Source of the DNA: Brachymonas denitrificans
GTDB taxonomy: Bacteria > Pseudomonadota > Gammaproteobacteria > Burkholderiales > Burkholderiaceae_C
DNA length: 64,000 bases
Assembly (NCBI RefSeq): GCF_907163135.1
Contig: NZ_CAJQUA010000001.1
Span: 1,379,001 to 1,443,000, forward strand
Reading direction: 5' to 3'
In this document: positions 43,589-46,070 of the stretch, piece by piece
How positions within the stretch are numbered: the stretch's first letter is position 1
Layout: each line of letters begins with the position of its first letter
The notes under the pieces: model-generated
The model's input: the letters and a program-made list of their open reading frames with translations, nothing else
Databases searched by the model: none
What the model was told of the DNA's origin: nothing
Program-made: the position numbers and the translations under genes

Positions 43589-43679
43589 CGCCCGCCGCGG
43601 GCACGCGAAGCACCAGTGGCTCTGGGGTTACCGCATGCCTGCTCTGGAATTGCGCCCGGGGGCGCCGGATAATGGCGCC

Positions 43680-46070
43680 ATGCAATCCAACCCCTCCTCC
43701 CGGGACGCGTGCTGTGCTGCGTCCGGACATGATGAGTCGCCTGCTTCGTGCTGTGGACCGGCGCCCGCGGCTGGCGCGACCACGGGATGCTGCACGCCGG
43801 AATCGGCAGCTCCCGCTGCCACGACGTGCTGCGGCTCCAGTTGTGCTGCCCCCCGTGAAGAATCCGCGCCCCTGCCTGCTGGCAGCTCCGGCACCTGGGT
43901 GCGCATCGCCAATATGGACTGCGCCACCGAGGAAGGCGAAATCCGCCGTGCGCTGGCCAGGCTGGACGGCATCCGCAGCCTGCAATTCCGCCTCGGTCAG
44001 CGCCAGCTGCTGATCGATGCCGATGCCCCGGTGCTTGAACAGGCGCTGGCCGCCATCCGCAAGGCCGGCTTCAATCCGGTGCCGCTTGCCGCGACGCCCG
44101 CAGCGGGCTCCGTGACGGCAGAGGCCTCCTGCCAGAGTTGCGACAGCGATCATGACGAGCACGACCATGTCCATGGGAATGCAGGTGACAGCGTGTGGAA
44201 ACTCGGCCTTGCGCTGGCGCTGGCCATCGCCGCCGAGCTGCTGCATCTGTGGGGAGAAGACATGCCGATGGCGCGCTATGCCGGCATGGGCCTGGCAGTG
44301 GCGGCCATTGCCCTGTCGGGTTTTTCCACCTACCAGAAAGGGCTGGCAGCACTGCGCCATGGCCGGCTCAGCATCAATGCGCTGATGACGGTGGCCGTGA
44401 CCGGGGCCTTCCTGATCGGGCAGTGGCCCGAGGCGGCGATGGTGATGGCGCTGTATGCCATCGCCGAGCTGCTGGAGGCACGCTCGGCCGCGCGTGCGCG
44501 CAATGCCATCGGGCAATTGCTGGAACTGGCTCCTGAACAGGCCGATGTGCTGCAGGCGGATGGCCAATGGCTGACGCTGCCGGTAGCGCAGATCCAGCCG
44601 GGTGCAGTGCTGCGCGTGAAGGCTGGCGAGCGCATTGCGCTCGATGGCGTGATCACTGCGGGGAACAGTGCCATCGACCAGTCTTCGGTGACGGGCGAGA
44701 GCATTCCGGTGGACAAGGGCACCGGGGATACCGTGTTTGCCGGCACCATCAACGGCACCGGCGTGCTGCAGATGCGCAGTACTTCGACGGCCGGCAATAC
44801 GACGCTGGCGCGCATCATCCATGCCGTGGAAGAAGCGCAGCACACGCGGGCACCTACGCAAGGCTTCGTCGATCGCTTCGCGGCGGTCTATACGCCGCTG
44901 ATCTTTGCGCTGGCCGTGGCGGTGGCGCTGGGCGGCCCGCTGCTGATGGGCTGGAGCTGGCTGGATGCCATTTACAAGGCCCTGGTGCTGCTGGTGATCG
45001 GCTGCCCCTGCGCACTGGTGATCGCGACGCCGGTGACCATCGTGAGTGCGCTGACGGCGGGTGCCCGCCGCGGTTTGCTGTTCAAGGGGGGCATCCATCT
45101 GGAGCAGGCTCGGCTGCTGAAGGCCGTGGCGCTGGACAAGACCGGCACGCTGACGCATGGCCGTCCGCAGCTGATCCATAGCGAGTGGTTTGTGGCGCCC
45201 GAGCGTGAAAGCGAAGTGCGCGCACTCGCCCTGGCGCTTGCGGGCGAATCCGACCATCCGGTGTCGCGTGCGATCGCAAGCGGCTTGCTGGCACGGGGGG
45301 CGCATCGTTATCCCGGCGTGCTTCAGCAGATCCATACCGTGCCCGGCCATGGGGTGCAGGCGCAGCAGCCAGAGGGAGAGGCGCTGCTGCTGGGACAGTC
45401 CGGCTGGATCGAGCAGCAGCATGGCGGCATGGATGCCGTGGTGCAGCAGGCCGTGACGCACCAGCTGGCCGAGGGCCGCACCGTGACGCTGCTGGCCAAC
45501 AGGCATCAGGTGCTGGCGCTGTTTGCGGTGGCCGACCAATTGCGGGCGCAGGCCGCACAGGCCGTGGGCGAGCTGCAAGGGCTCGGCCTGCATACCGTGA
45601 TGCTGAGTGGCGACCACCAGGTGACGGCCGATGCCATTGCGCATCAGGCCGGCCTGGCGCAGGCGCGTGGCAATCTGCTGCCGGAGCACAAGCTGGAGGC
45701 CATCCGCAGCCTGCAGCGCAGTCACGGCCCGACCGCCATGGTGGGCGATGGCATCAACGATGCACCGGCGCTGGCCAGTGCCGACATGGGGATTGCCATG
45801 GGCGGTGCCGGTACCGATATCGCCATGGAAGCCGCCGACGTGGTGGTGATGAACGACGACCTGCGCCGCGTGCCTGAGGCGATCCGCCTGTCACGCTACA
45901 CGCATGAAGTGCTGTGGCAGAACATTGCGCTGGCCCTGGGCATCAAGTTCGTGGTGTTCGTGCTGGCGCTGATGGGCCATGCCAGCATGTGGATGGCGGT
46001 GTTTGCCGATATGGGGGCCAGCCTGATCGTGGTGTTCAACGGGCTGCGGCTGCTGCGCTGGCGACAATGA
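43680..46070 (+). CDS. Heavy-metal P-type ATPase, Zn/Cd/Pb export type, with Cys-rich N-terminus
   Basis: 796-residue P1B-type ATPase. Order: Cys-rich extension (residues 1-58) with CC pairs at 11, 24, 37 and 50; one metal-binding HMA domain with MDCATEE (72-145); His/Asp-rich linker DSDHDEHDHVHG; transmembrane helices with the CPC motif in IGCPCALVIATPV; TGES; phosphorylation site DKTGTLT; HP motif SDHPVSRAI; GDGINDAPAL. CPC plus MDC(x)TEE fits the ZntA/CadA group, exporting divalent soft metals from the cytoplasm. A start at 43635 is possible. No MerR/ArsR regulator is adjacent. Confidence 0.9.
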   Translation: MQSNPSSRDACCAASGHDESPASCCGPAPAAGATTGCCTPESAAPAATTCCGSSCAAPREESAPLPAGSSGTWVRIANMDCATEEGEIRRALARLDGIRSLQFRLGQRQLLIDADAPVLEQALAAIRKAGFNPVPLAATPAAGSVTAEASCQSCDSDHDEHDHVHGNAGDSVWKLGLALALAIAAELLHLWGEDMPMARYAGMGLAVAAIALSGFSTYQKGLAALRHGRLSINALMTVAVTGAFLIGQWPEAAMVMALYAIAELLEARSAARARNAIGQLLELAPEQADVLQADGQWLTLPVAQIQPGAVLRVKAGERIALDGVITAGNSAIDQSSVTGESIPVDKGTGDTVFAGTINGTGVLQMRSTSTAGNTTLARIIHAVEEAQHTRAPTQGFVDRFAAVYTPLIFALAVAVALGGPLLMGWSWLDAIYKALVLLVIGCPCALVIATPVTIVSALTAGARRGLLFKGGIHLEQARLLKAVALDKTGTLTHGRPQLIHSEWFVAPERESEVRALALALAGESDHPVSRAIASGLLARGAHRYPGVLQQIHTVPGHGVQAQQPEGEALLLGQSGWIEQQHGGMDAVVQQAVTHQLAEGRTVTLLANRHQVLALFAVADQLRAQAAQAVGELQGLGLHTVMLSGDHQVTADAIAHQAGLAQARGNLLPEHKLEAIRSLQRSHGPTAMVGDGINDAPALASADMGIAMGGAGTDIAMEAADVVVMNDDLRRVPEAIRLSRYTHEVLWQNIALALGIKFVVFVLALMGHASMWMAVFADMGASLIVVFNGLRLLRWRQ
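43710..43844 (+). repeat. Cys-Cys repeat with 13-residue (39-base) period
   Basis: Within the P-ATPase N-terminus, Cys-Cys codon pairs begin at 43710, 43749, 43788 and 43827, exactly 39 bases apart; a single extra Cys follows (GSSC). The residues between pairs are Ala/Pro/Ser/Gly-rich and not conserved, so only the metal-ligand spacing is kept. Confidence 0.85.

Follow-up and report, generated by a model that had tools for sequence, protein, structure and literature searches.

The role of the Cys-rich tails of plant zinc pumps is disputed, with feeder, sensor and inhibitor as the contending functions, and a bacterial gene now raises a similar question. In a 64,000-nucleotide stretch of DNA from Brachymonas denitrificans (the window), which belongs to a genome of 2.75 Mb, a zinc/cadmium-type ATPase opens with a regular series of adjacent cysteine pairs. 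What would such an array do at the front of an exporter? The answer that we consider probable, if well short of certain, is that it constitutes a disordered di-Cys metal-capture tail on a ZntA/CadA-type Zn(II)/Cd(II)/Pb(II) export ATPase, feeding the HMA domain and the CPC transport site. The features concerned are collected in Table 1.

Table 1. Features of the pump gene and its upstream flank (positions in the window).
Feature	Position	Strand	Basis
Upstream neighbour ORF, 166 aa	43088..43588	+	Also upstream of the pump gene in the sister species
Upstream gap in which no MerR/CadR-type operator was found	43589..43679	+	Best score 14/23
GATAAT, -10-like hexamer 6 nt before the ATG	43668..43673	+	Likeness to the sister species; weak
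Zn/Cd/Pb-type P1B-2 ATPase, 796 aa, with N-terminal di-Cys tail	43680..46070	+	Pfam, TIGR01512, alignment
Four CC pairs with a period of 13 residues, ending in CCGSSC	43710..43844	+	Direct translation
CCGSSC, Cys motif directly before the HMA	43827..43844	+	Family N-termini, alignment
HMA-like domain, residues 71-135, motif MDCATEE (one Cys)	43890..44084	+	Pfam HMA, 36.5 bits; model
Second Cys/His-rich stretch CQSCDSDHDEHDHVH, residues 151-165	44130..44174	+	Direct translation

The open reading frame, which starts with an ATG, matches the Pfam families HMA, E1-E2_ATPase and Hydrolase. It passes the NCBIfam cadmium-family model TIGR01512 (485.6 bits against a cut-off of 313.5) and also, narrowly, the copper model TIGR01511 (400.9 against 397). 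Judged by these models, the pump is ZntA-like and not ZntA, because it misses the cut-offs of both the ZntA equivalog NF008262 (537.9 against 1005 bits) and the ZntA exception NF033775 (492.2 against 1240 bits). The P1B-2 motifs are present, namely TGES (residue 338), CPC (442), DKTGT (486), HP (526) and GDGxND (689). CPC sits in TM4 and, together with DKTGT, TGES and GDGxND, aligns with its equivalent in Escherichia coli ZntA, a pump of the same class that shares 285 identities over 728 aligned residues with the window's pump. A Lys in TM5 and an Asp in TM6 are features of ZntA and the P1B-2 group; both are matched here, by LGIKFVVF (LGLKGIFL in ZntA) and FADMGAS (LADTGAT in ZntA), respectively. 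The genome also holds two CDF-family genes, so other zinc exporters may be present and the pump is possibly not the only one.

Translation from the ATG at 43680 bears out the observation of the first-pass annotation that CC pairs occur at residues 11, 24, 37 and 50 with an exact period of 13 residues (codons at nucleotides 43710-43715, 43749-43754, 43788-43793 and 43827-43832, with the codon of Cys55 ending at 43844). The array spans residues 11-55 of 796 and is N-terminal, not C-terminal. Nine Cys fall within residues 1-58, compared with five in residues 69-796, and 78% of the tail (residues 1-68), Cys aside, is composed of Ala, Pro, Ser, Thr and Gly. With four CC pairs and no repeated GMxCxxC domains, the tail does differ from the usual GMxCxxC repeats, as had been proposed. 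The single extra Cys described behind the pairs exists as Cys55, but it is not isolated, being part of a CCxxC-like motif shared by many family members; when aligned to E. coli ZntA, the last unit matches the CCDGAC within CCCDGAC. Similarly, the domain that follows, which had been called a normal HMA, is recognized as an HMA by Pfam but departs from GMxCxxC, and from the CxxC (GMDCxxC) of the ZntA HMA, in carrying a single Cys. In a single-sequence AlphaFold model of the pump, poor overall (mean pLDDT 61), residues 71-135 are predicted to adopt a beta-alpha-beta-beta-alpha-beta order with pLDDT values of 71-93 per 10-residue block, and the block means of tail residues 1-70 are 39-48. Four CC pairs in a stretch of such low predicted order conform to the HMA4 type of tail, in which several di-Cys motifs lie in a low-structure cytosolic extension. 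The second Cys/His-rich stretch is placed between the HMA and the first membrane helix; its pLDDT is low and both of its Cys are kept in the sister species.

How unusual the regular spacing is can be gauged from random placement of four CC pairs in 58 residues, a post hoc test and a rough guide only, in which equal spacing arose in 0.14% of trials, spacings within two residues of equal in 2.5% and the series 13, 13, 13 in 0.0045%. The spacers do not repeat each other at the DNA level (on average 11.2 of 33 nt are identical, against a codon-shuffle mean of 11.9; p 0.81) and Tandem Repeats Finder listed no 39-nt array at this site; an origin of the window's own array from a DNA tandem repeat is unsupported on both counts. 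Since the similarity of the spacers does not exceed that of codon shuffles, the units, if they were born by duplication, have on this comparison diverged since.

The array is very probably translated, because the only in-frame start candidates between it and the HMA are CTG 43872 and GTG 43899. That translation begins downstream of the Cys region, so that the array is never made, is very improbable. GTG 43899 does lie in frame ahead of the MDC motif, and no clear Shine-Dalgarno sequence is seen by eye before 43680, but this GTG is the codon of residue 74, which falls within the first of the HMA strands (residues 72-77) predicted by the single-sequence model. Moreover, the MQS start and the CGGATAATNGCGCC preceding it are common to the sister species, whose frame contains no ATG, GTG or TTG within 150 nt upstream; the in-frame ATG 43635 and TTG 43650 found upstream in the window have no in-frame counterpart there. 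Likewise common to both species is CGGATAATNGCGCCATG around the start codon (43666-43682), which includes the -10-like hexamer and could give rise to a leaderless, constitutive transcript. A sigma-70 promoter scan found no promoter here and left GATAAT unscored.

The sister species (G002) is the nearest relative among the nine genus genomes, its pump being 85% identical over residues 9-795, a figure that rises to 90% when the comparison begins at the HMA. The first-pass annotation held that its proposal would fall if close relatives had no array; the closest has a larger one, with seven CC pairs at spacings of 13, 32, 13, 13, 14 and 12, and the other congeners that were read have at most three pairs. 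Window and sister share the first CC-x11-CC, and within the alignable part of the tail (residues 1-26) all four Cys are kept, a count of four residues only, in a region where dN is 0.293 compared with 0.047 in the pump body (approximately six-fold) and dS is 0.733 compared with 0.684. Across residues 27-68 the alignment is uncertain and four Cys are paired with other residues. Units 3-6 of the sister, which were chosen after being seen, are alike in DNA beyond codon shuffles (12.7 against 9.6 of 30 nt, p 0.0007); for all seven units together the likeness does not exceed that of shuffles (p 0.34). The sister array has perhaps grown by duplication of a unit of approximately 39 nt.

To place these tails within the family, 118 loci were surveyed (30, a further 80 hand-picked from a homology listing, seven congeners and the window), of which seven had no HMA-bearing frame and two were duplicates. 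The remaining 109 N-termini, some of which are near-identical or come two from one genome, contain no CC pair in 38 cases, one in 61, two in five and three in three; four pairs occur in the window and seven in the sister, the only two of the 109 with at least four. A Cys pair of the form C-x0-3-C is present within 75 residues before the HMA in 96 of 109, as CC in 70 of 109, and the strict CC-x2-3-C form, e.g. CCGSSC or CCGSAC, like the window's last unit, is found in 20 of 109. Many family N-termini also have His-rich stretches. Because a Cys pair before the HMA is so widespread and at least four CC pairs so rare, the array is most simply read as a lineage-specific expansion of CC units upstream of a Cys motif widespread in the family. 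The first-pass annotation had instead proposed selection on the 13-residue ligand spacing. Such strict selection is not upheld and was discarded as the main claim, given that the sister's spacings differ and those of other congeners scatter, these having His-rich tails with scattered Cys or two to three CC pairs at spacings of 12, 15 or 21. Outside window and sister, three of 11 spacings fall within 12-15 (0.94 expected, P 0.054) and one of 11 within 12-14 (P 0.51), by which a loose spacing preference in the family is possible.

One locus from another genus (L292, in G724) has three CC pairs at spacings of 13 and 14; it is included in a further set of 28 loci picked by likeness to the sister tail, which partly repeat earlier ones and, being biased towards arrays, provide no independent support. 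A congener (L008, in G003) bears an extension of approximately 275 Cys/His-rich residues before the HMA, with internal repeats and with ACGCSSQQNAPAAKDSHQSCGH occurring twice. When the first 160 residues were searched against 369 genomes of the class, matches at 1e-8 were obtained in eight, its own included. Six of the other seven loci have readable N-termini, with no or one CC pair, and at the seventh (L271) the match spans residues 3-134 and no HMA-bearing frame was found. Among 605 plasmid records none covered 80% of the query, and the 15 matches listed start at residue 62 or later.

The first-pass annotation also suggested looking for CC-x11-CC arrays in P-ATPase N-termini. When four in-frame CC-x11 units were sought globally, in a search that may not have included records from the window's genome or close to it, at least 118 stretches were returned. 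Of the 118 listed, 77 hold an open in-frame array, none with a P-ATPase motif in its ORF as far as the ORFs extended in the retrieved DNA, and many of the matches listed consist of runs of Cys or of repetitive DNA, so the search says little about pumps. Two of its matches were looked at more closely. A 215-aa open frame in a Clostridia MAG (L110) comprises near-perfect tandem CCGGKGEHKHGEG repeats followed by an acidic C-terminus; the protein is unrelated to the pump, and its CC array has a period of 13. A 462-aa open frame in a Planctomycetota MAG (L092) is Cys/Pro-rich with CCAPVATCAPEPT repeats of 13 residues. In the open-access literature covered, a scope that carries no claim of absence from print, no paper recognisable as describing a di-Cys array at the N-terminus of a bacterial P-ATPase was found.

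The upstream region of the gene is a second point of departure from the family. MerR-type operators are described in PMC1526738, which also gives the ZntR-type consensus, as dyads in a long promoter spacer. Sites were scored out of 23 for such a dyad within a 19/20-bp promoter spacer. Scores of 17-22 were obtained upstream of 100 of the 109 orthologs, and 60 shuffled regions gave 12-16; the 28 loci picked by likeness to the sister tail all score at least 17. No operator was found upstream of either array pump, the sister scoring 13/23. Genome-wide scans allowing 0-1 mismatches found a site near the ATPase or regulator gene in seven of the nine genus genomes, and no site in those of the window and the sister. 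The same seven encode a clear CadR/PbrR-like regulator (TIGR02047, 127-178 bits), only two of them above the curated cut-off (G001 and G008), where the regulator adjoins a different ATPase; in G003-G006 the regulator is on the same contig and in the same neighbourhood as the pump ortholog. In the window's genome and in that of the sister, TIGR02047 detected no clear regulator of this kind (best 85-87 bits). The best match in the former (85.3 bits), a gene located beside another ATPase, is presumably CueR-like, and a MerR_1 search of this genome gave five genes. The 166-aa neighbour ORF, which we take to be YqeY-like, was found in the sister (L006) and is absent from the fetched flanks of six other congener loci (L007-L012). 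Since both array species have this upstream neighbour in common, either the pump gene may have been relocated, leaving its regulator behind, or a deletion may have removed the regulator. Window and sister represent one lineage, so the joint occurrence of the array with a lack of any detected operator and clear regulator is a single event and may be a coincidence.

If the array is a capture tail, each CC, alone or paired through the flexible Ala/Pro/Ser/Gly/Thr spacer, would bind a soft divalent metal ion on the cytoplasmic side. In this way the tail would buffer metal near the pump, and the CPC transport site could then receive it by way of CCGSSC, the HMA and the CxxC/His linker. Under such a mechanism the spacing need only be long enough for the pairs to work independently or to fold back onto one another. 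The pump family and its transport residues, the enrichment of Cys, the retention of Cys in the fast-changing residues 1-26 and the low pLDDT of the tail ahead of a folded HMA all favour this reading; against it, an array is not needed for pump function, as the 2 of 109 orthologs with at least four pairs illustrate. The first-pass annotation spoke of a metal sponge or sensing tail. A multi-site, soft-metal-binding tail is, by the precedent of HMA4, also our best reading of the array, and sensing is retained as a rival only.

Two other explanations compete with the capture tail. The array might have arisen incidentally, when a short GC-rich unit was tandemly duplicated in a linker that tolerates such change; its period would then just reflect the unit length, and the pairs would contribute little function beyond the family Cys motif. 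We regard this as rather unlikely. The DNA likeness of sister units 3-6, picked after seeing, would fit it, as would a pair number of four or seven in a tail whose length and residues change fast, but neither the seven sister units taken together nor the window's spacers are alike in DNA, yet the Cys pairs remain, and Cys is otherwise rare in the protein. Alternatively, the tail could be mainly an autoinhibitory metal sensor that restrains the pump when metal is absent and releases it once the CC sites are filled. Were this so, and the transcriptional switch indeed missing, a constitutively made pump would come under metal-dependent control. This, too, is unlikely in our view. Operator and clear CadR/PbrR-like regulator went undetected in exactly the two array genomes of the nine, but a coincidence is easy in one lineage. 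Of the nine orthologs of 109 without a detected operator, only two have the array, the other seven having fewer than four CC pairs, although the sequence of L007 stops at a contig end and for others the fetched flanks are short. Two of the six readable class-level relatives (L268 and L269, from the same genus as each other) have neither an operator nor any CC. Conversely, L010, L011 and L292 combine two to three CC pairs with an operator (L292 scoring 18). The window's genome also has the presumably CueR-like regulator. The sensor gains some plausibility from HMA4, since shortening its tail raised tolerance in yeast, as stated in part of PMC10654040, and such a tail may accordingly restrain rather than feed its pump.

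A broader proposal combines these elements: that the pump lost a MerR-type switch and gained a metal-sensing di-Cys tail, control having moved from expression to activity in an independent, N-terminal analogue of the HMA4 tail. We hold this to be quite doubtful, more so than the sensor by itself. If tail gain and regulator loss were linked, metal control would have passed from promoter to enzyme; otherwise, the tail is an ordinary variable Cys/His-rich N-terminus.

Among known systems, E. coli ZntA resembles the pump in the Cys motif that directly precedes the HMA. In contrast to the four CC pairs and MDCATEE of the window's pump, a single Cys cluster and an HMA of the CxxC type (MDCAAC) are present in ZntA. 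The ZntA promoter is of the ZntR type, and no promoter of that type was found upstream of the window's gene. Removal of CCCDGAC from ZntA abolishes Pb binding, according to a statement in PMC10800456 that cites other work. CadA and PbrA, under CadR/PbrR control, exemplify the arrangement prevailing in the family; in the window's genome and the sister's, neither the operator nor a clear regulator was found. Yeast Pca1p acts by ubiquitination and degradation, a route that is not expected in bacteria. It is otherwise comparable, being a P1B pump whose Cys-rich N-terminus serves as a cadmium-binding sensor, as outlined in PMC10654040. The precedent at protein level is provided by plant HMA4/HMA2, Zn/Cd P1B-2 pumps with a cytosolic di-Cys-rich extension that in AtHMA4 contains 13 di-Cys motifs, and bacterial ZntA/CadA are described as having no C-terminal extension, unlike the plant pumps (both from PMC6255694). 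The plant tail is C-terminal, approximately 470 aa long and has a His stretch, whereas that of the window's pump is N-terminal, bacterial and approximately 68 aa long. PMC6255694 further reports that the di-Cys motifs of the HMA4 tail provide approximately 11 Zn sites below 10 nM, reduced to approximately four after CC-to-AA substitution, and PMC7264368 finds them partly dispensable for Cd. Set beside these plant tails, the 68-residue tail of the window's pump, the seven-pair tail of its sister and the few-pair tails of their congeners form a tractable natural series.
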